This document shows positions 139 through 36,066 of a DNA stretch of 39,712 bases, one piece after another. Where the stretch lies: assembly GCA_024762925.1 (NCBI GenBank), contig JANTGM010000050.1, forward strand, positions 1 to 39,712, written 5' to 3'. The notes under the pieces are model-generated. The model worked only from the letters and a program-made list of their open reading frames with translations, searched no databases and had not been told where the DNA came from. This DNA comes from Kofleriaceae bacterium. GTDB taxonomy: Bacteria; Myxococcota_A; Polyangia; Haliangiales; Haliangiaceae. The position numbers and the translations under genes were made by a program. The stretch's first letter is position 1; every line of letters starts with the position of its first letter.

Positions 139-1749
<1,611 letters not shown>

Positions 1750-1760
1750 GGAGAATTCTG

Positions 1761-4700
1761 ATGAGCACCGAGACGACGATGCCACCATTGGATATTGCAG
1801 AGACCCTGCAGGGCAAGAACATCATGCTGATTGGCAGCACAGGGTTTGTCGGCAAGGTCGCGATCAGCATGCTGCTTGATCGATACCCTGAGATTGGCAA
1901 GATCGTAGCTTTGGTGCGCCCAGGCATGGGCAATACCGCCGAAGATCGCTTCTTCAAGAAAGTCGCAACCTCGCCAGCATTTGACCCGGTTCGCGATCGC
2001 TACGGCAAGGGCTTCGATGCCTATCTGCGTGACAAGGTCTTGCCGGTTGGCGGCGATATCGGGCGTCCGCTTTGCAATTTTGGCGACGACGACTTTGCGG
2101 TCTTCGAGGAACTGGGCGGAATCGATGCCATCATCAACTCGGCGGGCCTGGTCTCGTTCACTCCATCGCTCGAAAGTGCGATTCGAATCAACGCAAAGGG
2201 CGCGCGCAACTGCCTGGACTTGGCTCGCAGGCTCGATGCCTCACTGGTACACATCTCGACGTGCTATGTCGCCGGTCGTCGTGATGGTGATGTCATGGAA
2301 GACGAGGAGGTCGTCGGATACTTCCCACGGCGCAATGAACTCGTTGACGATGACTTTGATGCCGACGCGGAAATTGCGGATTGTGAGCGCGTCATTGAGC
2401 AGGTGCGCGCCTTGGCGAAAGACCGACGACACATCTCGATGTTTCGAGAGAGGGCGCAGAACACTCTGCGTACCCAGCGGCGAGATCCAGATGACAAGTC
2501 CACGCTAAAGCTCTCGGTTGCGCGCGAACGCAAACTCTGGGTTCACGAGAAACTCACCGATGTCGGCATGAAGCGCGCAGAGCATTGGGGTTGGAGTAAC
2601 ACCTACACCTATTCCAAGTCGCTTGGCGAGCAGGTCGTTCTCAAGGACACGTCGGTGCGCTCGTGCATTGTGCGTCCGGCCATTGTCGAGTCGTCGGTTT
2701 CGTTTCCCAAAGTGGGTTGGAATGAGGGCTTCAACACGACGGCACCGCTTGTGTACGCCATGCTCAAGGGGCAGCGGCTTATCGTAACGGGAGACAACAC
2801 CAACCTCGACATCATTCCTGTCGATATGGTGTGCACGGCCATTGTCATGGCGACGGCTGCGGTCATGCGCAACGAGCACAAAGCGGTGTACCAAGCGGGC
2901 TCTAGTGGGGTGAATCCGGTCTCCTCGGAGAGGCTCTGTGAGCTCTCGGGGCTCGCTGTGCGCGGCTACTACAAAGAGCAGGCTGATGATGGCGTTGACA
3001 AGTGGAAGAACCGAATGCGGGCACGCCGTGAGGCCCATCCTGTCAGTCGAGAGACCTTTCATCGCCTCGGCACGCCTCAAGTAAAACGCTTTGTCGATCG
3101 CATCTCGAAAGAGATTGATGAACGCCTACCTCGATGGGGGGCGCCTCGTCTTGCTGCCTTCGCCGAGCGGGCGCAAGAGGAATTAGAAAAAGTCTCAGTG
3201 ATGAGCGAGCAGATCATGGATCTAATGGATCTGTTTGAACCATTCATCCACGACCATGACATCGCTTTTCGCTCTGACAATCTGACAGCCCTTTGGGACC
3301 GACTCCCAGACCGCGACAAAGACCGAATGATGTGGACGCCAGCCGAAATCGATTGGCGAAAGTACTGGATCGAGAGTCACTTTCCCGGGCTCATCGAGTG
3401 GGTCTTCCCTGTGCTCGATGATGAGTTTGGCGTCAAACCACGCTCGGTATACACCTACAAGGACATGCTTGAGCTGTTCGACTCTTCGGTCAAGCTCAAC
3501 AAGCACCGAGTCGCACTGCGTTTCCTAGAGACCGAAGCGCCGGATACGCCGCCCGTTGTCTACACCTACGAGCGACTGGGTGTTCTCGCATCTCGTACCG
3601 CATCGAACCTTCGTGATTGGGGAGTGGTTAGCGAAGACCGTGTGGCGATCATGGGCGAAGGGCGGCCCGAGTGGAGCATTGGCTACTTTGGAATCCTCAA
3701 ATCTGGGGCCACGGCTGTGCCGATGGACTCGCAGCTGTCTTTGGCGGAGATTGCCAATCTCCTCAAAGCGTCTTCGGCCAAAGCCTTTATAGTCTCAGAA
3801 AAAGTCTGTGAACGACTTGCGGAGGATGGCGACGTGGAAGCCGAAGAGGGGCTTGCGCGGGCAGCCGTGGTCGCTGCATTGCGAGGACTCGGGTGCGAGG
3901 CGAAAGTCGTTGGATACGACGACATTCTGGACCCGCCAGAGAACGACACCCCTGTCGCTCTGCCGCCTCGAAAGGGCGATCGTGTCGCTTCACTGATCTT
4001 CACGTCAGGCACCACCGGGCAGCCTAAGGGCGTCATGCTAACCCACAAGAACCTCACCTCGATGGCGGCCAAGCTGTCTTCGACATTCAGGCTCTACAAA
4101 CACGATGGGTTGCTGTCGGTGCTTCCGATGCACCACACCTTCGAGTTTTCTGCAGGTCTGCTCATGCCGCTGATGCATGGAGCGTCGATTACCTACCTCG
4201 ATGAACTGAACGCAGACGCTCTTAGCGCCGGTTTTAAGTGCGGCCACATCACCGGGATGGTGGGCGTGCCTGCGCTCTGGCAACTGCTGCACCGAAATGT
4301 GCGAAAGCGTGTGAGTGAGCGCGGTCCCCTGGTAGAGCGCGCCTTTGACGCGATCGTGGATGTCAATCGCGCGATTCGCGAGAAGACACCACTTGAAGTG
4401 GACCTTGGTCGCCTGGTGTTCTTCCCGGTGCACCGCGAGCTCGGTGGTCGCATCCGCCTCATGATCAGCGGGGGGTCGGCACTGTCCCCCGAGGTCATGA
4501 AGTCATTCCGCGGAATGGGCTTTCGCCTCTTTGAAGGTTACGGCATGACAGAGGCATCGCCTGTGTTGGCAGTGCAGCGTCCTGGTGATCCAGTCAAGGA
4601 AGGCAGCGTTGGGCGGGCACTTCCCGGGATTGCAGTGCAAGTCTTCGAGCCAAATGAAGATGGTATCGGCGAACTCATCGGCAAAGGCCCAAACGTGATG

Positions 4701-6254
4701 AAGGGCTATTACGAGAACGAGGAAGCCACCGGCGAGGTCATTCGCGATGGCTGGTTGCACACCGGGGATCTTGGCCGGATCGACGAGGACGGCAACGTCT
4801 TCATCGTTGGTCGCAAGAAAGAGATGATTCTCGGCGCCTCGGGTGAGAACGTGTATCCGGACGAACTTGAGGAGCTTTACGGCGACAGCGATTTTGTCAA
4901 AGAGCTTTCCGTTGTGGGGCTGCCATCCACAGGCACCGGAGAAACCGTTGCGGCTCTGGTGGTGCCCGACTACGAGCATGACGAGGAACTGTCCCGAGAA
5001 GCGGTTCGCGACTTGGTGCGCGAGCATGTGAAAGACGTTTCGAAGAAGCTGCCAATCTACAAACGCGTCAAGCTTTGGCACCTCTGGGATCACGACTTGC
5101 CAAAGACCTCGACGCGAAAGGTGAAGCGACGCGAGATTGTCGAGGAACTTGAAAAGCTCGAGAAGGTCGCAAGCAGTGCTTCGAATGCTCGTAAGGCTGC
5201 CGACGACGCGAGTGATGGCGATGCGGGCGATACGCGCTGGGTGCGCGATGTTGTGGCGCAGGTTTCTCAGCGCAAGCCGAGCGATGTGCGCCCCGATAGC
5301 CGAATGGAGTCGTTGGGCTTCGACTCGCTGATGCTAACCGAACTCACCGTGGCGCTTGAGGCGGCGGGCTTGCGACTACCGGATCCAAACGTCATCAACG
5401 AGCTTGAGACTGTCGGCGACCTAGAGACGTTGGCGGCACAACAGGGGCTCTCGATGGCGCGCGACAAAGCGGCAAAAGCGATCGTTGCGTCGAGCGAGCA
5501 CACGTTGGACGAGGACATCAAGATTCCGGGCGCACTAGCCAACGCTGGTCGCGCTGCACTCGGGACCGGGCAGGGCATGCTCTACAGCCGGTACCTCGAT
5601 ACCAAGGTTCGCGGGAAATCCTTCATCCCACCATTTGGGGGCTTTATTGTGGCAGCAAACCACAGCTCGCATCTCGACATGGGGCTCGTGAAGCACACAC
5701 TGGGCGAGCACGGTGACAAGCTTGTTGCGCTGGCTGCGAAAGACTATTTCTTTGAAGACCCGGTTCGCAAAGCCTACTTTGAGAACTTTACCAATTTGCT
5801 TCCCATGGAGCGGCATGGGTCGCTGCGGGAGTCGCTGCGCTTGGCGGGAGAGGTTCTGCGTGAAGGCTACATCTTGCTCATCTTTCCGGAGGGCACACGC
5901 AGCACGACGGGAATCATGACCGATTTCAAGCCCTCGATTGGCTACCTCGCCATGACAGCCGGTTGCGGCATTTTGCCGATGTATCTCGGTGGCACTCATG
6001 ACGCGATGCCAAAGGGGGCCTACCTGCCAAAACGCCAAGAGGTTGTTTCTAATGTTGGCCCGTTCCAGAGCTACGAGACCCTTAAGAAAATGACCGAGAA
6101 CATGAAGCGCTCCGAGTCGTATCGACACATTGCCTATCAAGTGGAAGCGATGGTTCGCGACATGGCTCCATCGCGATACGAGTGGACGCTAGGCGAAAGC
6201 GGTCGCATGCCAGCGGCAGACGCGGTCGTGACACAGAAAGAAGCAGGCGTATGA
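1761..6254 (+). CDS. Multidomain lipid enzyme: fatty acyl reductase, AMP-ligase, ACP, PlsC acyltransferase (ElbD-like)
   Basis: About 1497 residues in one chain. Domains in order: (1) NAD(P)-binding male-sterility-type acyl reductase with GSTGFVG at residues 25-31 and a YxxxK motif near 280; (2) AMP-dependent acyl-CoA/ACP synthetase with the P-loop [10 protein letters not shown] near 745; (3) acyl carrier protein with the phosphopantetheine serine S1189 in LGFDSLML; (4) PlsC-type acyltransferase with HSSHLD (H1301, D1306) and FPEGTRS near 1375. A plausible route is activation of a fatty acid, loading on the ACP, reduction to aldehyde or alcohol, and transfer to a glycerol backbone. The set resembles the multifunctional myxobacterial enzyme ElbD reported for ether lipid synthesis; I could not check its domain order. 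The start chosen is the ATG at 1761 with AGGGAGA (1748-1754) upstream. The frame is open from 1632, but that part overlaps the preceding gene. Confidence 0.9.
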
Positions 6255-11687: not shown

Positions 11688-12842
11688 GTGGAATGGGGCC
11701 CGCAAATACGTCCAACCCGTGCCGTGGTGGATTTGGACGCCATTATCGCGAATACCAGGCGTCTGGCGAGATTGGCGGGCTGTGCGTTGTTTGCGGTGGT
11801 CAAGGCCGATGCCTACGGGCATGGGGCAACTGCCGTTAGTCTGGCGCTTCAATCGGCGTGCTCCGATCCAAGCGTGCTCAAGGGCTTCGCCGTAAGTCTC
11901 CTCGAGGAGGGGATTGAGCTTCGGGAGGCAGGTGTGCGGCGACCAATCTTGGTCATGGGCCCTTCGCTCATGGATGCGCACTCGTGCGTGGTGGAGCACG
12001 GGCTCATGCCAATGGTCTCGGACGTTCGTCATCTGAAACCCCTTGCAGACGCCGCGCAGAGCTCAGAACAAATCTTAGACCTGCACCTGAAAGTCGACAC
12101 CGGCATGGGCCGGCTGGGCATTCGGCCGAAAGCGCTGGCCTCAGCGATTGAGGAAGCCACATCTCATCCTGCGCTTCAGCTGCGAGGCATCGCCTCACAT
12201 CTCGCCTGCGCTGACAGCGACGATCCGAATGATCCGCGCTCCATGAGTGCCGAGCAGTTGCGGCTCTTTGGGCAGCTGGTTGCTGCGCACCGAGAATCGC
12301 TTGGGCCCAAGGTGCAGTTTCACGTTGCAAACAGTGCTGCTGTGCTTCGGTTTCCACAATCTCGATTCGACCTGGCCCGCCCTGGGATCGCACTCTACGG
12401 AAATGGCGGGGGCCAGGGAGATCGATTGGCCCAAGCAATCCGCCTTGTGTCGGAAGTGAGTCAAGTGCGGCGAGTTCCTGCAGGGGAGAGTGTCTCGTAT
12501 GGAGCTCGCTGGACGGCTGCTCGCGACACAACGGCTGCCATCGTTCCCGTGGGGTATGCCGATGGCCTGCCGCGAAGACTCAACCTTGAGGGCCGAGGGC
12601 GTGCGCTTATTGGCGGCAAGCGCTGTCCTATTTTGGGGACAATCTCGATGGACATGGTCGTCGTTGACATCACCGAATCTCCACAGGTCCGGGTCGGCGA
12701 GGAGGTGGTAGTGTTGGGCCGGCAGGGCAGCGAATGCATCTCAGTGTCGGAGATGGCCGGACTCTGTGGAATTAGCGAATACGAAGTGAGCTGCGGAATT
12801 TCGAAGCGCGTTCCAAGACAATATGTGGGTGGCAATGGCTAA
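11688..12842 (+). CDS. alr: Alanine racemase
   Basis: 384-residue fold-type III PLP enzyme that makes D-alanine for peptidoglycan. The PLP lysine is K39 in VVKADAYGHG. Further family motifs are HLKVDTGMGRLG, GIASHLACAD, FHVANSAA, DLARPGIALYG, the catalytic-tyrosine segment SYGARW, and VPVGYADGLPR followed by GTISMDMVVVD. The start is GTG at 11688. GGAGG lies 12 nt upstream, but a -10-like element 7 nt upstream makes a leaderless mRNA possible too. The 3' end overlaps the MlaE-type permease gene by 20 nt, so both are probably cotranscribed. Confidence 0.95.
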   Translation: MEWGPQIRPTRAVVDLDAIIANTRRLARLAGCALFAVVKADAYGHGATAVSLALQSACSDPSVLKGFAVSLLEEGIELREAGVRRPILVMGPSLMDAHSCVVEHGLMPMVSDVRHLKPLADAAQSSEQILDLHLKVDTGMGRLGIRPKALASAIEEATSHPALQLRGIASHLACADSDDPNDPRSMSAEQLRLFGQLVAAHRESLGPKVQFHVANSAAVLRFPQSRFDLARPGIALYGNGGGQGDRLAQAIRLVSEVSQVRRVPAGESVSYGARWTAARDTTAAIVPVGYADGLPRRLNLEGRGRALIGGKRCPILGTISMDMVVVDITESPQVRVGEEVVVLGRQGSECISVSEMAGLCGISEYEVSCGISKRVPRQYVGGNG

Positions 12843-13668
12843 CGAACAAGAGCCAGAGGTCACTATTGGCCAAGCGGTCGGGCAGGGTGTACGCGATGCC
12901 TTCTCGCCTGCCACTAGGCTGATCGAGACGATCGGTGGCCATGTCATCTTGGCCGCAAAGGCACTCTCTTGGCTTCCGCGCAGGCCCTATCGGCTGAGAA
13001 ATCATGTCGACGCAATGGAGTATGTTGGGTTTGGCTCACTGGCCATTGTTCTTCTTGTCGGGCTCTTCACCGGCATGGTCACAGCGCTTCAGAGTGTGCA
13101 TGTCTTTCGCATTTTTGGCTTTGAGCACATCGTTGGCGGGACCACTGGTGTTTCGATCGCAGCAGAGCTTGGCCCTGTGCTCACCTCCCTCATGCTGGCA
13201 GGGCGCGTGGGCGCCGGCATCGCGACCGAGCTTGGCACCATGCGAATTACCGAGCAGATCGATGCGCTTGAGTCCATGGCCGTCAATCCGATTCAATTCC
13301 TCGTGCTTCCGCGAATTGTCGCCGGCACGCTCATGACACCCATCCTGGTGCTGCTCTTCTTCATCATCGCGATGCTTGGGGCGTACTTTGTTGCGGTGGT
13401 CAACCTCGGTGGCGATGCTGGCCACTTCCAGCTCAACTTCGAGTTGATGGTAAGTTTTGAGGAGGTCGCTAAGGGCTTGCTCAAAGGGGCCATTTTTGGG
13501 TTCACCATCACGCTCATTGGCTGCTTCTACGGCTTTGGCGCCTCTGGTGGCGGCCGTGGTGTCGGGATCGCTACAACCAAGGCGGTGGTTGTGAGTTCTG
13601 TGTCAGTTCTCGTGCTCGATTATTTCATTACCGAGATTTTCCTCGTTATCTTCCCGGTCGGAACCTAG
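12823..13668 (+). CDS. MlaE/YrbE-family ABC lipid-transport permease
   Basis: 281-residue inner-membrane protein with five or six hydrophobic segments. The MlaE hallmark is present: ELGPVLTSLMLAGRVGAG, then ITEQIDALESMAVNPIQFLVLPRI. MlaE dimers form the membrane core of ABC systems that move phospholipid to or from MCE rings. The first 60 residues form a basic amphipathic lead-in typical of the family. Start 12823 overlaps alr; the ATG at 12835 in the same frame is an alternative. The MCE gene follows 96 nt later, past a terminator. No MlaF-type ATPase gene is present between or beside them. Confidence 0.92.
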   Translation: MWVAMANEQEPEVTIGQAVGQGVRDAFSPATRLIETIGGHVILAAKALSWLPRRPYRLRNHVDAMEYVGFGSLAIVLLVGLFTGMVTALQSVHVFRIFGFEHIVGGTTGVSIAAELGPVLTSLMLAGRVGAGIATELGTMRITEQIDALESMAVNPIQFLVLPRIVAGTLMTPILVLLFFIIAMLGAYFVAVVNLGGDAGHFQLNFELMVSFEEVAKGLLKGAIFGFTITLIGCFYGFGASGGGRGVGIATTKAVVVSSVSVLVLDYFITEIFLVIFPVGT

Positions 13669-13764: not shown

Positions 13765-15336
13765 ATGAAGGGCGTCTCGGCAGCGGTCAAAGTCGGCATT
13801 CTCTTTGTGGCGATGGTCGTGGGGTCCTACGGAGTGTTTCGCACCCTTAGCGATAAGCCCAGTGGTGAGTCGGACTTTGAGGTCTGGGCGCGTCTAGACG
13901 ATGCTGCGGGGCTTCCAGAAGGCTCCCAGGTGGTGGTTGCAGGTCTTCCGGTTGGCCAGGTTAGCAATCTTCGCATTGATGGACGCTTTGCCCGCGTAAC
14001 CATTCGCGTGAGAGATGATGTTGTGCTGTGGGACAATGCGGTGCTCTTTAAGAAGAGTTCCAGTCTCCTTGGCAACTTCTATCTGGAAATTGATCCGGGC
14101 AGTGCCGAATCTATTAGCGCTTTGGGTGAGGCAACACCAAGCAAACGCATGCCATCGGGCAGTGAAATCGTTCGTGTTGTCGAGGCAACGTCGGTCGATA
14201 TGCTTTTGCGCCGACTTGATGAGAGCCTGCCCAAAGTCGATGCTGTGCTGCTGAGTGTCCGCGACCTGAGTGAGGATGTTCGCGGTGTGGTGAACGGGCC
14301 GCTCGCCTCGGTGATGAGCCGCGTTGACAACCTGGTACAGGATGAGGCGGCCACTGTCTCGAACATATTGGAGCGTACCGATCGAACCCTCGCTCGCATT
14401 GAAGACATCACACGTGACATTCGCGGTGTGACGTCGGATGCAAACGTGCGCGTAAAGGGCATTCTCGACAACCTGGACAAGGCCTCAGGCGAGGCGCGTG
14501 ACTTGCTTGAGGTCGCGAAACTCGAAGTAGAGCAAACGGGTGATGCCCTGCGAGAACGCATCGACTCCATTGATGAAGTGGTGGACCCAACCGCATCGGT
14601 AATGCGGAAGATCGACGAAGAGGAGGGTACGCTTGGCAAACTCGTCAACGACTCGACCATCGCCGATAATCTCGAGGACATCACCGATGATGCCAACAAC
14701 TTCTTGGGCACGCTCTTCGGCATGCAAACCTACGTTGGGCTGCGCTCCGAAGTGAGTGTCTACTCCGGTCTGGCACGTCACTATGTCAGCATCGATCTTC
14801 AGACCCGGCCCGATAAGTTCTACTACATCGAGCTTAGCAAAGGTCCGCGAGGCAACTATCCAGAAATCGCTCTCAACTACGACTCGGTCTCCGACTCATG
14901 GCAGCGAACGATCAAAATCGAAGACGCCGTGCGCTTCACGTTTCAGTTTGCAAAGCGGTACGACTGGCTGACAATTCGCTATGGACTCAAGGACTCGTCT
15001 GGTGGCGTCGGTATCGATGGTTCTTGGTTTGACAATCGTCTGAAGGTGAGTGCCGACCTCTTCAACTTTGGCTTTGACGAAAATCCTCGCCTCAAGCTTG
15101 CGGCAGCCTATGAGTTCTTTGGTGGGCTCTATATCTTGGCCGGTATTGATGACGCGCTTAACTCCTTTGAGGAGATCGTGCCCGGTCCCTTTAGCGACCC
15201 CACGACCCCCGAACTCTTTGAAGAGATTCCGATTGGTCGCGATGTCTTCTTTGGGGCCATGCTGCGATTCAATGACCAGGATTTGGCCGCCCTCTTGACT
15301 GTGGGTGGATCGGCTCTCGCCGGCGCCACCAACTAG
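13765..15336 (+). CDS. MlaD/MCE-domain protein with predicted C-terminal beta-barrel
   Basis: 523 residues. One N-terminal membrane anchor (about 8-27) is followed by an MCE domain (about 38-118) with DAAGLPEGSQVVVAGLPVGQV and the closing LLGNFYLEIDPGS. MCE domains form hexameric rings for lipid transfer. Residues about 135-320 are long, mostly charged helices (predicted coiled coil). The last 200 residues read as alternating amphipathic strands with aromatic girdles (VRFTFQFAKRYDWLTIRYGL, RLKVSADLFNFGF, LKLAAAYEFFGGLYILAGI), as in outer-membrane barrels or a beta-rich cap. One chain could thus run from the inner to the outer membrane. An RBS-like GGAGGG precedes the ATG. The ATPase partner is not encoded nearby. 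The MCE call is sure; the barrel is inferred. Confidence 0.88.
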   Translation: MKGVSAAVKVGILFVAMVVGSYGVFRTLSDKPSGESDFEVWARLDDAAGLPEGSQVVVAGLPVGQVSNLRIDGRFARVTIRVRDDVVLWDNAVLFKKSSSLLGNFYLEIDPGSAESISALGEATPSKRMPSGSEIVRVVEATSVDMLLRRLDESLPKVDAVLLSVRDLSEDVRGVVNGPLASVMSRVDNLVQDEAATVSNILERTDRTLARIEDITRDIRGVTSDANVRVKGILDNLDKASGEARDLLEVAKLEVEQTGDALRERIDSIDEVVDPTASVMRKIDEEEGTLGKLVNDSTIADNLEDITDDANNFLGTLFGMQTYVGLRSEVSVYSGLARHYVSIDLQTRPDKFYYIELSKGPRGNYPEIALNYDSVSDSWQRTIKIEDAVRFTFQFAKRYDWLTIRYGLKDSSGGVGIDGSWFDNRLKVSADLFNFGFDENPRLKLAAAYEFFGGLYILAGIDDALNSFEEIVPGPFSDPTTPELFEEIPIGRDVFFGAMLRFNDQDLAALLTVGGSALAGATN

Positions 15337-15495: not shown

Positions 15496-16050
15496 ATGAA
15501 GGTGCCTCTCCGAGAACTGCCGCTCAAGCGGTCATTTGCGCTCTCCGCTGACTTTGTCGATGGACTTGTTGCGGGCTTGCCCATGCGAAAAGCGCTTGGA
15601 TCTGAAGCTTCACAGGCTGGAGAGGGGACCGCCGAGCTCGAATTCTACATGGAAGGCGACAATGTCTTTGCCCGTGGCTCACTGGATGCCTGGGTGGAGC
15701 TTGCCTGCAGCCGCTGTCTGGGAAACCTCCGGCATTCCATTCAAGAGGAACTCATGGTGACCTATCTTCCCGGTGGCCAGGTGCCCAACGAGGATGGCCT
15801 AGAGGCCGACGAGGAAGACACCGATGAGGGGGATGCGGTAGACACCTATGGCTATGAGGGGGAGGAGATCGATGTGGAACCGCTGCTTCGGGAGCGCGTT
15901 CTTCTATCTGTGCCCTATGCACCGCTGTGCAAGCCTGATTGCCTAGGCCTGTGTAGTAAGTGCGGCGCCAATCGAAACGATTCCGAGTGTGGATGCGATC
16001 GAAAAGTTCTCGATCCAAGACTAGCCGCGCTCAAAGACATTAAGGTATAA
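15496..16050 (+). CDS. yceD: YceD/DUF177 family protein (23S rRNA accumulation)
   Basis: 184 residues. It matches the DUF177 pattern: an N-terminal beta-rich half ending in VELACSRCLGNL (CxxC), a very acidic middle (DEEDTDEGD) and a C-terminal VPYAPLCKPDCLGLCSKCG with several Cys that look metal-binding. In E. coli YceD is needed for normal 23S rRNA levels and is encoded just before rpmF, as here. The gene opens the yceD-rpmF-plsX-fab cluster. Its ATG has no ribosome binding site but a promoter immediately upstream. Confidence 0.9.
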   Translation: MKVPLRELPLKRSFALSADFVDGLVAGLPMRKALGSEASQAGEGTAELEFYMEGDNVFARGSLDAWVELACSRCLGNLRHSIQEELMVTYLPGGQVPNEDGLEADEEDTDEGDAVDTYGYEGEEIDVEPLLRERVLLSVPYAPLCKPDCLGLCSKCGANRNDSECGCDRKVLDPRLAALKDIKV

Positions 16051-16074
16051 GCCCGCAGCTCAGGAACCGCTACG

Positions 16075-16107
16075 GCCTAGAAACAACTACAGCCTAGAAA
16101 CAACTAC
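16075..16107 (+). repeat. Tandem 17-bp repeat in the rpmF leader
   Basis: GCCTAGAAACAACTAC occurs at 16075-16090 and again at 16092-16107, a 17-bp period; a decayed half copy (CTACTTAGGAAAC) runs into the rpmF ribosome binding site. The core GCCTAGAAAC recurs at 19129-19138, before acpP. Function unknown. Confidence 0.8.
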
Positions 16108-16120
16108 TTAGGAAACCCCA

Positions 16121-16324
16121 ATGGCACTTCAAAAACGACGACTTGGTAGAACTCGCATTCATCACCGCCGCTCCTCATGGATGCGCGATGCAGCAAACCA
16201 CCCCAGCATCCAAAAATGCCCAAACTGTGAGGAGCCTAAGGCCCCACACCGCATGTGCATGAGCTGCGGCCAGTACAATGGTCGTCAGGTTGTTGCTGCT
16301 GTGAGCGACGACGCTCAAGAGTAG
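16121..16324 (+). CDS. rpmF: 50S ribosomal protein L32
   Basis: 67 residues, starting [20 protein letters not shown] (the classic L32 start is xVPKRRTSKSRRR). It has a zinc ribbon CPNC..CMSC with a typical [16 protein letters not shown] end. The ATG has AGGA about 9 nt upstream. Being next to yceD and plsX is the usual bacterial arrangement. Confidence 0.95.
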
Positions 16325-16368
16325 GCTTTTCTTTCCTCCAGGCCCCTGTGGGTTTGGACGGTTCCTAA

Positions 16369-17424
16369 ATGGTTGCTATCGCAGTAGATGCCATGGGCGG
16401 AGACAACGCCCCGTCCATTGAAGTGGCGGGTGCGCTCGCTGCTCTGCGCGAATCCCCTGGGCTGCGAGTTGTTCTGGTCGGCGACAAAGAGCGTTTGCAG
16501 CGAGAGCTTGCTGCATCGAACGCGAGTGAAGGCAAGCGCCTAACGCTGCGTCATGCATCTGAGGTGGTGTCCATGAAGGACAACCCCTCCAAGGTGTTTC
16601 GGAAAAAGCCCGACTCCTCGATGCGCGTGGCCACCGATCTTGTGGTTGATGGCAGTTGTGCAGGGTTGGTCTCGGCAGGCAACTCGGGCGCTGTGCTGGG
16701 CCACTGCCTCTTTCTCATGAAACGCATTGCAGGGGTTGAGCGCCCTGGCATTGTGCAAGTCTTTCCCACGCCAACGGGCACAGTCGCGATGTGTGACCTT
16801 GGAGCGAATATTGCGGTTACCCCAATAATGCTGGCCCAATTTGGCATCTTTGGCGCGGCATATGAGCGCGTTCTCAACGGGACCAAGAAGCCTCGAATCG
16901 GGGTCTTGTCCAATGGTACTGAGGACAGTAAGGGGACCGAACTCACCCGCGCCGCCTCCCAAATCCTGGCGCGGGCTGCTCAAGATCCAGAGGCAGAATT
17001 CGAGTTCCTTGGCTATGTCGAAGGGTCCGGCCTTTTCGATGGCCTTGTTGACGTGGTTGCGACAGATGGCTTCACTGGCAACGTTGTATTAAAAACCGCA
17101 GAGGGTGTATCAGAGGCGTTGATGCGCATGATCAAGACGGCGCTCACAAGCTCAGCACGAGCCAAAGTTGGGGCCCTGCTCGCCAAACCGGCACTACAAG
17201 AATTCAAGAAATCCATACACTATTCGGAGTACGGCGGCGCCATGCTGCTTGGCATCAATGGCATCGCCACCATCTCTCATGGGCGCTCGGATGCTCGGGC
17301 GATCTGCAACGCAATCTTGATGACCGAACGCTTTGCTGAGAAGCACTTGCTTGCACAGCTGAGCCAGGATATCGATCGGCACCAAGAGCTGTGGAAGACC
17401 ACCAAAGCTGAGGAAACCGCATGA
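16369..17424 (+). CDS. plsX: Phosphate acyltransferase PlsX
   Basis: 351 residues. PlsX converts acyl-ACP to acyl-phosphate, the acyl donor for phospholipid synthesis. Family marks: IAVDAMGGDNAPS at the N-terminus, VVSMKDNPSKVFRKKPDSSM, GLVSAGNSGAVL, DLGANI, IGVLSNGTEDSKGTEL, VVATDGFTGNVVLKTAEG and GGAMLLGINGI. It is full length. Its stop overlaps the fabD start in ATGA. A complete fabH, often found at this point, is absent. Confidence 0.97.
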   Translation: MVAIAVDAMGGDNAPSIEVAGALAALRESPGLRVVLVGDKERLQRELAASNASEGKRLTLRHASEVVSMKDNPSKVFRKKPDSSMRVATDLVVDGSCAGLVSAGNSGAVLGHCLFLMKRIAGVERPGIVQVFPTPTGTVAMCDLGANIAVTPIMLAQFGIFGAAYERVLNGTKKPRIGVLSNGTEDSKGTELTRAASQILARAAQDPEAEFEFLGYVEGSGLFDGLVDVVATDGFTGNVVLKTAEGVSEALMRMIKTALTSSARAKVGALLAKPALQEFKKSIHYSEYGGAMLLGINGIATISHGRSDARAICNAILMTERFAEKHLLAQLSQDIDRHQELWKTTKAEETA

Positions 17425-31024: not shown

Positions 31025-34000
31025 CTATTCGGTGGTCTTCTCGCTGAGTAGGACCAGCGCTCGATTGGTGACCACTTCGCTCGAGAAACTCTCTCGCCAA
31101 AGTGGGTTGCTCAGCGCAGCGAGTTTGCGCTCAAAGCCTGCGACTGCCCTGGCGAGGGTCGCCTCTGAATCGGGCGAAGCTGTTGCCTCAAGAAGAAGGT
31201 AGTGGGCGTAGACAATCTCTTCTTCGGAGCCCTCGACATAGGTCTGGGTGTCGAGGATCTCCATCGCCTTGGTCGAAAGATCGATGGCTGGCGCCATGTT
31301 GCCCAGCCGGTGTTCGGCCTGCGCCTGTCTCGAGAGGGCCATCGCGCGCGCGCCCGATAGTGAGGCTGTGGCCGCTTGCTGGGCCGCTGTGGCCGCGTAC
31401 TCAATCGCCTTCTCCGCATCGCCGGTGTCGGCTCGTTTGAGCAGAGCTTCCGCCATGCCAATGCCAGCGTTGATGAGAACGTAGGGGGATTTGATTTCGC
31501 TGGCGTACTGATAGGCGAGGGTAAGGCGCTCCAATCCAAGCTCGATGTCACCTAGCATGACGGCGTTGAGTCCCGCGTAGATGAGCGAGTCTGCTTCACT
31601 CCACCTCGACTTGGTTTCTCGATGAAGACCCAGCGCGCGCTCAAAATAGGTCCTGGCGACCGTGTACTGGCCCACTTCGTTGAGAATAATTCCGCAGACC
31701 GAAAGGTTGTCGCCGGCCCGCGCTTGGTCGCCATCGGCCTCGCAGAGACTCACACTTCGCTGAGCGCAACGGATCGCGTCTTCGAACTCACCCAAGCACA
31801 TGTGAATGACAGCCAAGTGATTGCTTGCAATGCGTTCGAGCCCCGGATCCCGGTTGCGCTGGACCTCGGCGATGATTGGTTCGTAGATCTGCTTGGCGTC
31901 GGCGTATCGGGCACGGACCAGAAAATTTCTGGCAAGGCTGATACGGGCTCGCGTCTCATAGCTTCGCACACCGAGTGACTCAAAGATTCCGAGTGCCTCT
32001 TCTGCGCGCTGCTGTCCAGCTTCGAAGTTTCCCGTTCGCTCAAGAGCCTCTCCCATGACTCGAAGAGCCTCCCCCTGCATCAGAGGAACAGCAGCGGCCG
32101 TGGCGATGTCGTGGGCTCTTTGGGCTCCTTCGATTGCTTGGTCAAGCACGCCTAGGCGCAAGAGTCGTTCGGCCGAGTGCACGACCAGCTCCGCTTCTTC
32201 GGCGCTGCCAGACGCACACAAAGGCTCAAGTGAAACCAGATCGGCTCCTTGATGCTCTGGTTCTCCAAGGTCGCGATAGGCCCGTGCACGCCCAAAGTAG
32301 GCTTCGCGAAGCAAGTCCTCGCAATGGGCTTTCTGGCCATTGCAGTCACCGAGTACTGCAATGGCTGTGGTGTACGCGTCACGCGCACTGGCGGTCTCAA
32401 AGGCGGCGAGGGCGACCCGGCCAGCGCGCAGCCACTGCGTCGCAGAGGCGATGACTTCTCCGCCGAGTTCGAGATGCCTTGCGACGATTGCTGGTGGCTC
32501 ATCGAGACCAGAGTCGGCACGGAGCGCGAGCAGCTTGCCGAGGTTCGCATGCGTTGTGCGCCGGGGGCTGGCAGAGAGAGAAGAGTAGACGACCTCTTGA
32601 ATGAGCCCATGTCGAAACGCAAACTCACCGCCCTGGCTTTGAACATCTGCTTGGTTGCTCTGGACCAGCAGCCCCTCTTCAACGAGCTCTTGCAAGTGAG
32701 GCCCAACTGCAGAGCCGACGAGTTCTTCGAGAATGCTGGAGCGAAATGTCTCTCCAATCACGGCAGCTCGCTGCAAGACAGCCCGGGTGCGTCGCCGTAA
32801 CCGGTCGATTCGAGCCACCACGCTGTCTCGAATGGTGGCAGGAGTTGCATCCCAGCCAACTTCCCGAATCGTCCGGCACAGCTCTTCTATGTACAGCGGA
32901 TTGCCACCAGCGCGGCGAGCGACTTCCGTTGCGCCAGCGTCCTCGAACGACTCGCCAAGACGGTCTTCGATCAAGACGCCTCGTTCGGGTTGTAAGAGTT
33001 CTTCTAGTCGGATAACCGCGACCGTCTCCAGCGCCTGGGCACCTTCAAGGTCGTGCCGCGCGCTCAGAACGAAGATACAGGGGAAGTCGCGAGTTTGACG
33101 ATCGAGTAGATATCTAACAACACCAATGCTGGCGTCATCAGCAAGGTGCACGTTCTCAAGCACGACGACGCTGGGGCGCTCTCCTGCCAGTGTCCGATGC
33201 ACAAGAGCGATGGTCTCTGCGCAACGTTCACGAAGGGCGGCAGCAGCATCTTCGTTGATGCCCAAAGCGCCATCTCGCAGCTCCATAGCCAGCTCGAAGC
33301 TCTGCGTGGCATCGATAAGCTCTTCTTCACTCACGGACTGGCGAAGACAGGAGGCCAGGCCGTGGGCAAGCTGGGCCCGAGCATGCTCACCGCGCCCAGG
33401 TGGCAGATTGAGCGCGGCCTGCATGTGCTCAATCGCCAGGCTGAGGGGCGCACCCGATGACTGTGTGGTCGCAGAAATTGCGATGAGCAGTGTCTCGATG
33501 GATGTCTCTTCGAGGCGGGCAACAAACTCCGCAATCAACCGACTCTTGCCAATCCCACTGTCACCTTGGATGAGCACTCCTGTGGGCGAGCTGTGCAGAG
33601 CGGCTTCCTGGAAACTTTGCCAGAGTTGTTCGAGCTCCTCGGTTCGACCAACAAACCGTCCGCCTCTGTCGCGGAGTGCACGTCTGCGATCATCGTGGCC
33701 GCTGGGCCCAGTGAGTTCCAAGACCCGCAGTCGTCGACTTCGATAGCGCCGCGCCGCCAATTCCCGGAATTGAAACTGGGCCGAAGCTACGCGCCCAGCG
33801 CCGCCACTGAGCAGGGGACGATAGGGCTCGGCGCCACGCGCCAACTCACGGGCCTCGTTTAGCGCATCGCCGCGAAGCTGATAGGTGTCAGCGCGCCGCT
33901 GGGCTACCACACCCGAGCGCGCCGCTGAGCGCAGGCGAATCGGAAGACCTTGGGCATCGGCCGCTCGCGTGAGTTCTCCCGCATCGAGAGCGTAGTGCAT

Positions 34001-35314
34001 TGAGCTTGCAATGTTGTCTTCGCCGGCAAGCTCAAGCCCAAAGATGGCCACCACCTCTTCGTCACTGTGCTCGTGAACCACGGCACCGTGCTTGTACGCA
34101 AGGTCGCAGAGCGTGCGGCTCACCTGCAGACGTCGGGACTCATCGCCCCCATCCAATCGCAAGATCGCGATCACAACACGGCGCTTGTCAATAAGACTGG
34201 CTAGGGAGAGCGGCGGCTGCTCGATGCTGCCACTGTGATCTTCGAGATCCGAGTCGCTCTCGCCAGAGTCGGTGAGGGCCAGTCGCAGACTTGTTTGGGT
34301 TTTCTCGCCAATGAGCGCCTCGGGAATCTTGTTCGCTTCTGTGATTGCCGACGGGAAGAATGCTGGCGCAGGCGCAAGGTCGGTTTGCGTTTGCTCGTCA
34401 GGCTCCGGTGCGCAGTGGTCGCGAAGCCAGGTGGAGAGCGCTTGAGCATTGGATTCTTCGGAGAGTTCTCGCCCCGATTGGGCAAGCACGCTCGATATCT
34501 CACGGGCAGTTCCGCGTTGCTCGGGATCACGCTGCAGTGCGCGCATGATGGCATTGCAGAGCATCGCTGGCAGATCGGGGCGAATGCTCGCGAGATGGGG
34601 TATCTCGAAGTCACGAACAGATTTAAGGATTGCTCTTAGATCTCGCCCAGTAAAAAGCTTACGCCCTGCGAGAAGTTCCCAGGCGAGAATGCCAACAACA
34701 AAGACGTCCGAAGCAGCCGTGGGCGAGTCTCCGCGGGTTTGCTCTGGAGACATATAGCGCGGCTTGCCACGGAGGCGCTTTGATGATGGCGCCGCAACAA
34801 ACCGAGCGCGTGCCACCCCGAAGTCGAGGATCTTCACAAAGCCTTCGCGGCTCAGAAGGACGTTGTGCGGCGAGACATCGCAGTGCACGATGCCAAGGGG
34901 AACGCCCTGACGATCCGCTTTGCGATGGGCGTAGTCGAGGCCAGAGGCGACTTCGGATAGTAGGTAGGCTGCGACGGCTGGTGGGAGCCTCTCGCCCGGG
35001 CCTAGGGCCTGGAGAGCCGTACGCAAGTCGACGCCTTCAAGAAGCTCCATTGCAAGGTAGAGTTCGCCATCGGCTTTGCCAAAGTCGAAGACCTGTACGA
35101 TGTTGCGGTGGTTGAGCGTCACGGCGATTCGCGCTTCATCAATGAAGTTGCGAATGAAACGCGCCTCGCTGGCAAACTGAGGTTTGATGCGCTTTAGAGC
35201 GAGAACCTTTTCGAAGCCTGCGATGCCGACTGTCTTGGCCATGTAGACCTCGGCCATACCTCCTTGGGCAATCATGCCAAGGATGTGATATTTGCCGAGC
35301 CGCTCGGGAGCCAT
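31025..35314 (-). CDS. Ser/Thr kinase - cyclase-like - AAA ATPase - TPR regulator (PknK-type)
   Basis: About 1429 residues. Kinase domain 8-270: GQGGMAEVY-type loop (AQGGMAEVY, 16-24), K41, HCDVSPHN (144-151; the HRD Arg is Cys), DFG 164-166 and SPE. Residues about 375-520 look like a class III nucleotide cyclase homology domain (GAVVHEHSDEEVVAIFG), but I see no complete set of metal Asp residues, so it is probably inactive. A STAND/AAA_16-type ATPase begins near 560 (GRTEELEQL), with the Walker A GDSGIGKS near 580. About 880-1400 is a chain of TPR-like helical repeats. Such proteins integrate signals by phosphorylation and NTP-driven switching. I chose the ATG at 35314. It is divergent from rnc with 29 bp between the starts. 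Confidence 0.88.
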   Translation of the reverse strand: MAPERLGKYHILGMIAQGGMAEVYMAKTVGIAGFEKVLALKRIKPQFASEARFIRNFIDEARIAVTLNHRNIVQVFDFGKADGELYLAMELLEGVDLRTALQALGPGERLPPAVAAYLLSEVASGLDYAHRKADRQGVPLGIVHCDVSPHNVLLSREGFVKILDFGVARARFVAAPSSKRLRGKPRYMSPEQTRGDSPTAASDVFVVGILAWELLAGRKLFTGRDLRAILKSVRDFEIPHLASIRPDLPAMLCNAIMRALQRDPEQRGTAREISSVLAQSGRELSEESNAQALSTWLRDHCAPEPDEQTQTDLAPAPAFFPSAITEANKIPEALIGEKTQTSLRLALTDSGESDSDLEDHSGSIEQPPLSLASLIDKRRVVIAILRLDGGDESRRLQVSRTLCDLAYKHGAVVHEHSDEEVVAIFGLELAGEDNIASSMHYALDAGELTRAADAQGLPIRLRSAARSGVVAQRRADTYQLRGDALNEARELARGAEPYRPLLSGGAGRVASAQFQFRELAARRYRSRRLRVLELTGPSGHDDRRRALRDRGGRFVGRTEELEQLWQSFQEAALHSSPTGVLIQGDSGIGKSRLIAEFVARLEETSIETLLIAISATTQSSGAPLSLAIEHMQAALNLPPGRGEHARAQLAHGLASCLRQSVSEEELIDATQSFELAMELRDGALGINEDAAAALRERCAETIALVHRTLAGERPSVVVLENVHLADDASIGVVRYLLDRQTRDFPCIFVLSARHDLEGAQALETVAVIRLEELLQPERGVLIEDRLGESFEDAGATEVARRAGGNPLYIEELCRTIREVGWDATPATIRDSVVARIDRLRRRTRAVLQRAAVIGETFRSSILEELVGSAVGPHLQELVEEGLLVQSNQADVQSQGGEFAFRHGLIQEVVYSSLSASPRRTTHANLGKLLALRADSGLDEPPAIVARHLELGGEVIASATQWLRAGRVALAAFETASARDAYTTAIAVLGDCNGQKAHCEDLLREAYFGRARAYRDLGEPEHQGADLVSLEPLCASGSAEEAELVVHSAERLLRLGVLDQAIEGAQRAHDIATAAAVPLMQGEALRVMGEALERTGNFEAGQQRAEEALGIFESLGVRSYETRARISLARNFLVRARYADAKQIYEPIIAEVQRNRDPGLERIASNHLAVIHMCLGEFEDAIRCAQRSVSLCEADGDQARAGDNLSVCGIILNEVGQYTVARTYFERALGLHRETKSRWSEADSLIYAGLNAVMLGDIELGLERLTLAYQYASEIKSPYVLINAGIGMAEALLKRADTGDAEKAIEYAATAAQQAATASLSGARAMALSRQAQAEHRLGNMAPAIDLSTKAMEILDTQTYVEGSEEEIVYAHYLLLEATASPDSEATLARAVAGFERKLAALSNPLWRESFSSEVVTNRALVLLSEKTTE

Positions 35315-35327
35315 CGCCACAGTCGCG

Positions 35328-35337
35328 AGTATATAGT
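35328..35337. promoter_or_regulatory. Shared bidirectional -10 region of the kinase gene and rnc
   Basis: AGTATATAGT is nearly self-complementary. On the plus strand it gives TATAGT (35332-35337), 6 nt before the rnc GTG; on the minus strand TATACT (35333-35328), 13 nt before the kinase ATG. Only 29 bp separate the two start codons, so both mRNAs would be leaderless or almost so. No good -35 is visible for either. Confidence 0.5.
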
Positions 35338-35343
35338 GCTCGG

Positions 35344-36066
35344 GTGGCAAGCGCGCGAGACAAAGCAAGTGGCGGAAGTGAAACTGTGGACCGAGGCGCG
35401 CTTGAGGCAGCTTTGGGCCACCGCTTTTCCAATCCGAAGCTGCTGCAGACGGCTTTGACCCACCGCTCCTATGCCAATGAGCACAGCGCTGAGGGCTGCA
35501 AAACGAATGAGACGCTGGAGTTTCTCGGTGATGCCGTGCTCGATTTGGTAATCGGCGAGCACTTGATGGAGCGTTTCCCCAAGTTGGGCGAGGGCGACCT
35601 GTCGATGACTCGTGCGCAGATGGTTAGTGAGCAGGGACTTTGCCAAGTTGCCAGACCGCTCGACTTGGGTTCATGGCTGCGCCTTGGTCGTGGCGAGGAG
35701 CGCACAGGGGGGCGAGAGAAGTCCTCGCTATTGGCGGATGCCCTGGAAGCCGTAATTGCAGCGGTTTACCAGGATGCTGGCTTCGAGGCCGCCAAGGCAT
35801 TGATTCTCTCGCATTTCGCGCCACTCACTCCGGCAACTCCGGGCCAGCGAACTGACTACAAGACAAAGCTGCAGGAACTTGTGCAACGGGTTCACAAGTC
35901 AGCCCCTGTCTACGAACTTGTCGGGGAAGATGGCCCTGACCACGAAAAAGTGTTTGAGGTCGCTGTTATTGTCGATGGCTCCGAGCGAGCGCGCGCGAGC
36001 GGGCGCAGTAAAAAGGCCGCAGAGCAGGCCGCGGCCGCCTTGGCCATGGAAGAACTCTCTTCGTAG
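35344..36066 (+). CDS. rnc: Ribonuclease III
   Basis: 240 residues. The catalytic signature NETLEFLGDAVLDLVI is present, with a second acidic cluster (LLADALEAVIAAVYQDAG) and a C-terminal dsRNA-binding domain (DYKTKLQELVQ … GRSKKAAEQAAAALAMEEL). It cleaves double-stranded RNA in rRNA and mRNA processing. The start is GTG at 35344, with no ribosome binding site but a TATAGT 6 nt before. The 3' end faces the DUF6178 gene across 3 nt. Confidence 0.95.
   Translation: MASARDKASGGSETVDRGALEAALGHRFSNPKLLQTALTHRSYANEHSAEGCKTNETLEFLGDAVLDLVIGEHLMERFPKLGEGDLSMTRAQMVSEQGLCQVARPLDLGSWLRLGRGEERTGGREKSSLLADALEAVIAAVYQDAGFEAAKALILSHFAPLTPATPGQRTDYKTKLQELVQRVHKSAPVYELVGEDGPDHEKVFEVAVIVDGSERARASGRSKKAAEQAAAALAMEELSS

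Follow-up and report, generated by a model that had tools for sequence, protein, structure and literature searches.

In Veillonella parvula, MlaD is a protein of 419 aa in which a transmembrane (TM) helix, an MCE domain and about 150 helical residues are followed by a ten-stranded barrel, an architecture called "long MlaD" (Grasekamp et al. 2023, PMC10665443), and the barrel has been found in the outer membrane by fractionation (PMC10665443). A barrel was inferred in 103 diderm MlaD sequences, the main text of that report not naming Myxococcota, and barrel-type long MlaD tends to co-occur with the absence of MlaA and MlaC (PMC10665443). In V. parvula, mutation of mla gives rise to loss-of-asymmetry phenotypes, which are suppressed by tamB (PMC10665443). 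Other MCE systems are built differently. The short MlaD of the MlaFEDB complexes of E. coli, Acinetobacter and Pseudomonas has neither a tunnel nor a barrel, and its partners are MlaC and MlaA. PqiB and LetB of E. coli form long periplasm-spanning assemblies, in the case of PqiB with a helical tunnel, but each of their chains carries several MCE domains, their partners are of the PqiA/LetA type rather than MlaE, and they have no barrel of their own. Mycobacterial Mce1 (8fed) has an anchor, one MCE domain, a long helical tunnel and MlaE-like permeases. It is a heterohexamer in which each chain gives one strand to a small common barrel (PMC10665443).

We analysed a stretch of 39,712 nucleotides from a Kofleriaceae bacterium (contig JANTGM010000050.1 of GCA_024762925.1), here called the window, whose mce gene encodes a member of the barrel-type long MlaD kind, which is widespread in Myxococcota (Table 1). 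In common with V. parvula long MlaD, the protein has an anchor, one MCE domain, a helical region of about 150 residues and an adjoining mlaE, with no MlaA, and it is predicted to end in a barrel of about ten strands with a hydrophobic exterior and aromatic girdles. Unlike the V. parvula protein it has 523 aa and a short helix after the barrel, its locus lacks mlaF (an unlinked tandem MlaF is a candidate) and a MlaC homologue is kept; many Myxococcota, also unlike V. parvula, have a barrel-type mce gene on its own. The MCE fold and the MlaE permease are shared with MlaFEDB, and a long periplasm-spanning MCE assembly would be shared with PqiB and LetB. Mce1 resembles the window protein in its anchor, single MCE domain, long helical tunnel and MlaE-like permeases, and differs in being a heterohexamer with a small barrel formed in common by its chains. 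The initial annotation could not tell whether the architecture was known, and novelty to science has to be rejected, since long MlaD with a barrel has already been described as a transenvelope bridge (PMC10665443).

Table 1. Features of the mce locus and of the unlinked tandem MlaF gene (window positions unless a contig or locus is named)
Feature	Position	Strand	Basis
mce (523 aa), MCE protein of the long MlaD type with a C-terminal beta-barrel (predicted)	13765..15336	+	intact ORF, Pfam, AlphaFold2
N-terminal inner-membrane anchor helix (predicted), residues 2-29	13768..13851	+	AlphaFold2
MCE/MlaD domain, single copy, residues 39-112	13879..14100	+	PF02470 E 7e-14
Helical tunnel region (predicted), residues 144-318	14194..14718	+	AlphaFold2, mostly pLDDT 41-73
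C-terminal beta-barrel (predicted), residues 321-502	14725..15270	+	pLDDT mostly >90, OpcA match, alternation and conservation tests
Additional hairpin within long barrel loop, residues 367-384, poorly conserved	14863..14916	+	AlphaFold2, alignment
Final barrel strand with beta-signal-like G-x-x-L-x-F	15253..15270	+	41-sequence alignment, AlphaFold2
Short helix after barrel, residues 504-522, family motif FNDEDLK	15274..15330	+	AlphaFold2, alignment
mlaE permease, directly upstream of mce	12823..13668	+	PF02405 E 1e-71
yceD, rpmF, plsX, then fabD, fabG, fabF, downstream of mce	15496..17424 (yceD-plsX)	+	YceD by Pfam; plsX/fab by sequence reading
Tandem MlaF, 541 aa, two MlaF-type ATPase domains in one chain	L072:4752-6377 = contig C52, 13751-15373		two ABC_tran domains

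The anchor, MCE domain and long helical stretch that had been read from the sequence of this gene product are recovered by AlphaFold2, the MCE domain also by Pfam PF02470. In structure comparison the anchor helix superposes on the MlaD TM helix of 6xbd and 7cha, and the MCE part, with strands spanning residues 37-140 in the AlphaFold2 model, on E. coli MlaD 5uw8 (VIA Z 18.0, 1.6 Å over 99 residues). PF02470 matches one stretch of the protein, which is therefore not of the PqiB/LetB type with several MCE domains, and a sequence-profile match to Mce1 8fed covers residues 6-249. The scores against the models for actinobacterial Mce (TIGR00996, 66.6 bits) and proteobacterial short MlaD (TIGR04430, 52.9 bits) are below the respective curated cut-offs of 140.5 and 135. 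Over the C-terminal 200 residues nothing in Pfam or NCBIfam reached E ≤1.

In the AlphaFold2 model of the full protein the C-terminal block consists of strands at residues 321-331, 337-348, 351-360, 367-373, 378-384, 388-399, 402-409, 412-421, 426-433, 442-452, 455-462 and 493-502, with pLDDT about 90-97 except in the loops near 361-384 and 465-490, and the strands were unchanged when residues 312-523 were modelled in isolation (mean pLDDT 88.6, pTM 0.79). The block matched OpcA 1k24 with Z 17.4 (2.7 Å, 138 residues) in the full model and Z 16.9 (2.8 Å, 138 residues) in the domain-only model, and omptin Pla with Z 14-15 (14.2 with the domain-only model); the domain-only model also matched a Legionella porin (Z 14.8) and the designed ten-stranded transmembrane barrel TMB10, 8uzl (Z 14.4). 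Soluble calycin-type barrels (nitrobindin-like and Rv0813) matched more weakly (Z 11-12). Plain Foldseek with the barrel domain as query gave nothing under E 0.001, the top rows being outer-membrane proteins, and there was no sequence match of the barrel to any solved structure among the matches listed. OpcA, the omptins and TMB10 are ten-stranded barrels, and because these are the best structural matches we read the barrel as one of ten strands, in which residues 367-384 extend one of the loops as a hairpin. The monomer prediction proposed in the initial annotation thus yields a beta-barrel in both the full and the domain-only model, with outer-membrane barrels as the best matches, and not a soluble globular C-terminus. 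The barrel had been placed in the last 200 residues; its presence there holds, while its modelled extent is 320-502, followed by a helix of 19 residues.

The question of a membrane barrel or a soluble domain was also addressed in an alignment of the window protein with 40 full-length relatives from Myxococcota genomes (41 sequences), one relative being a paralogue from the same genome. The polar/nonpolar alternation of the barrel strands, which had been noticed in the single sequence, had a family average of 1.48, a value reached by none of 5000 within-strand shuffles (0.77 ± 0.16), and the identical test on the MCE strands gave p 0.14. Such alternation is by itself silent on which face points outward. 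The hydrophobic face of the barrel strands is 7% charged and 75% hydrophobic and the polar face 38% charged, and the aromatics of the hydrophobic face gather near the strand ends in many strands (e.g. 330, 353, 389-391, 406, 449-451, 494 and 502), in line with the aromatic belts suggested earlier. The polar face is the more conserved one (entropy 1.32 versus 1.60 for the hydrophobic face), the difference being modest (permutation p 0.037), whereas in these proteins the MCE strands show the reverse (hydrophobic face 1.46, polar face 2.24). Judged from conservation, this pattern is opposite to that expected for a soluble barrel, and since the hydrophobic face is variable and the polar face conserved, the former is likely to be a lipid-facing exterior, unlike a soluble core. 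Among the conserved residues of the polar face are R327, R405, D418, D431, R442, D462 and several glycines, which would be expected if this face packs inside a narrow membrane barrel. In the last strand G497, L500 and F502 are conserved in 98%, 80% and 100% of the 41 sequences, and G497-x-x-L500-x-F502 bears what we take to be a resemblance to the outer-membrane beta-signal.

The matches to nitrobindin-like and Rv0813 barrels, and the shortness of the barrel strands (7-12 residues), would be compatible with a soluble calycin/nitrobindin-like domain that binds lipid and caps a long MCE tunnel in the periplasm, outside the outer membrane. We consider this very unlikely, as outer-membrane barrels match better (Z 14-17), the variable face is hydrophobic and the conserved face charged, the reverse of a soluble barrel and of the protein's own MCE strands, and the last strand has a beta-signal-like motif. 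The Veillonella barrel, furthermore, fractionates with the outer membrane (PMC10665443). A soluble globular C-terminus was rejected as improbable, the fold matches and the per-face conservation favouring a membrane barrel; the models support a transmembrane-type beta-barrel, which would presumably be inserted in the outer membrane.

Between the MCE domain and the barrel there are 149 helical residues, which would reach about 22 nm if continuous (AlphaFold2, low confidence). Helices 181-222 and 228-270 are amphipathic, with family-average moments of 0.41 and 0.35 against 0.17 for shuffled sequences (0/1000 as high), and this is compatible with a tunnel whose lumen is hydrophobic, like those of PqiB and Mce1. 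The protein would presumably be a hexamer, as had been assumed in the initial annotation. To our knowledge, a ring of six barrels has been shown for no protein. Such a ring was judged unlikely by the Veillonella authors from their own models (PMC10665443).

The same architecture, which the initial annotation proposed to look for in Myxococcota, was found there: of the 188 Myxococcota genomes sampled, 121 contained the domain when searched with a profile of the barrel alone. The gene is carried by, among other named organisms, Polyangium fumosum, Minicystis rosea, Nannocystis exedens and Labilithrix, and the 80 loci kept in a scan of named genomes were all from Myxococcota or from loosely named delta-/proteobacterial and bacterial bins. 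MlaA (PF04333) was present in 38 of the 188 genomes and was not found in the genome of the window or its relatives. No genome of the 188 has both the barrel and MlaA, while 24.5 would be expected if the two were independent (Fisher p 9e-22, a value inflated by the relatedness of the genomes, with the MlaA families perhaps amounting to a single clade or a few). At family level the barrel occurs in 28 families and MlaA in 8, none being common to both, and the exclusivity may reflect few evolutionary events. This mutual exclusivity supports the earlier proposal that no separate outer-membrane partner such as MlaA is needed, and the split by lineage supports a barrel that has taken over the outer-membrane role of MlaA. 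It also offers a sharp comparative test within one phylum, with barrel lineages without MlaA and MlaA lineages without the barrel. The literature searched, from which subscription papers and preprints were outside the scope, contained no work on MCE or Mla systems of Myxococcota and no tandem MlaF; that strict barrel/MlaA exclusivity in the sampled Myxococcota is not described there is weak evidence of its novelty.

MlaC (PF05494) behaves differently, being present in 37 of the 38 MlaA genomes and in 94 of the 121 barrel genomes, and the genome of the window keeps a homologue (E 9e-32, contig C103). The barrel therefore goes with the lack of MlaA and not with the lack of MlaC, and the retention of MlaC in 94 barrel genomes means that the periplasmic chaperone is not simply dispensed with. 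This uncouples MlaC from MlaA and raises the question of the role of MlaC in barrel lineages. At the MlaC locus (L071:337-5056) the adjoining genes encode a TolC-family outer-membrane efflux protein, a CDP-alcohol phosphatidyltransferase and a myo-inositol-1-phosphate synthase; the TolC-family gene adjoins MlaC in 4 of 8 other genomes checked.

The gene order crp-alr-mlaE-mce-yceD-plsX-fabD-fabG-fabF, in the window with an rpmF-like ORF between yceD and plsX, is conserved in genome G030 and partly in other genomes, and places mce beside genes of fatty-acid and phospholipid synthesis. The closest neighbours of the window protein in a tree of all 41 MCE sequences are those of G005 and G030, and the other families lie apart. 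An mlaF gene was sought in the window by tblastn with both MlaF proteins of contig C166, and as this gave nothing at E 0.01 an overlooked mlaF was rejected. The mce loci of the relatives come in three arrangements, mlaE-mlaF-mce (e.g. G005, of the same family as the window, G036 and G062), mlaE-mce without mlaF (the window, G030 and families f25, f35, f42 and f53) and mce alone (many Polyangia), and one family thus has two states, with operonic mlaF in G005 and none in the window organism.

The best matches of the operonic MlaF of G005 in the genome of the window are the two halves of the tandem MlaF protein (50 and 48% identity), and no mlaE or mce gene lies near its gene on contig C52. Walker A and Walker B are present in both halves, and the signature motif is LSGGM in the first and often altered in the second (ISEGQ, ISAGQ, ISNGQ), with ISGGQ in one relative. 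Tandem MlaF occurs in 38 of the 188 Myxococcota genomes, all 38 of which carry barrel MCE, and is missing from all 21 genomes for which a single mlaF adjoining mce was listed. The 13 mlaE-mce loci without mlaF that were read directly are all in tandem-carrying genomes, and the tandem was not found in the sampled genomes with the three mlaE-mlaF-mce loci. Judged from sequence, the tandem protein is probably the ATPase of the mlaE-mce transporter of the window.

It is not the sole candidate, since two more MlaF proteins are encoded on contig C166. Both genes are intact, and their products could power the mlaE-mce pair while the tandem protein serves something else. This we find improbable, because the C166 proteins are only 41 and 37% identical to the operonic MlaF of G005, to which the tandem protein is closest, and because the presence of the tandem follows the mlaE-mce arrangement without mlaF. 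With the tandem MlaF as the favoured ATPase, we lean slightly towards the view that in many Myxococcota one asymmetric double ATPase, with unequal signatures, drives an MlaA-free bridge in trans and replaces the MlaF homodimer. An unlinked tandem MlaF as energy source was not met in the literature searched, which is again weak evidence of novelty. If true, surveys of MlaF by neighbourhood only would label such systems ATPase-less; in the published survey of long MlaD, where mlaF is usual in the cluster but MlaDE clusters were also included, MlaF was detected by synteny only (PMC10665443), and an unlinked tandem MlaF would therefore have been missed. The tandem protein would be a single-chain asymmetric ATPase for a MlaE transporter in which each ATP site can be mutated separately, and thus be useful for studies of mechanism.

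Taking together the computed domain content, the barrel-type fold, the lack of MlaA and of an adjoining mlaF, and the tandem MlaF elsewhere with its co-occurrence, we consider it quite likely that the window protein is a myxobacterial long MlaD forming an MlaA-free lipid bridge between the two membranes, with the tandem MlaF ATPase acting in trans. At the inner membrane the N-terminal helix and MCE domain would be seated on MlaE, the permease, and six copies would form an MCE ring that is continued through the periplasm by a helical tunnel with a hydrophobic inside. Every copy would have a ten-stranded barrel of its own at the C-terminus, inserted in the outer membrane, and the barrels would hold the tunnel mouth there. 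Since the barrel interiors are charged and narrow, lipid would most likely enter or exit at the tunnel mouth or barrel periphery and not through each barrel. ATP hydrolysis would most likely be supplied in trans by the unlinked chain with two MlaF domains, and the system would carry phospholipid from one membrane to the other with no need of MlaA; the direction would be retrograde if Veillonella and E. coli are a guide.

The barrel could also be in the outer membrane of a system with another cargo or direction, namely anterograde export of lipid or another hydrophobic molecule instead of Mla-type retrograde removal. That mce adjoins the plsX-fab biosynthesis genes and that MlaC is kept separately would fit with export, but the MlaE-type permease and the MCE homology to retrograde Mla, the asymmetry lost in the tamB-suppressed V. 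parvula mla mutants (PMC10665443) and the barrel/MlaA exclusivity make it rather unlikely. The preferred reading, a myxobacterial long MlaD, would extend the transenvelope MlaD model to Myxococcota.

Further MCE and Mla genes were seen in the genome. A second barrel-type MCE protein (L041:7650-9140, minus strand, contig C88) is 33-35% identical to the window protein over its full length; its gene has no adjoining mlaE, and genes resembling FtsE/FtsX and peptidases are found within a few kb. In the tree this solo paralogue and its G005 counterpart form a long-branched sister group, a pair flagged as a possible long-branch join. Contig C166 (L040:91-5316, minus strand) has the six genes mlaF-mlaE-mlaE-mlaF-mce-mce, with MCE proteins of 338 and 350 aa without a barrel, and looks like a two-subunit MCE transporter. 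A fusion of ABC ATPase and MlaE permease of 527 aa (L042:4846-6429, minus strand, contig C97) was considered as a general partner of solo MCE genes and rejected, as it is rare (4/188 Myxococcota genomes). Elsewhere in the window, a gene at 31025-35368 (minus strand) encodes a serine/threonine kinase of 1447 aa that also has AAA ATPase and TPR regions, a type often met in the signalling of myxobacteria, and one at 1632-6254 (plus strand) encodes an unusual one-chain lipid enzyme of 1540 aa with a fatty acyl reductase-type domain, an AMP-binding acyl ligase, a carrier-protein site and an acyltransferase.
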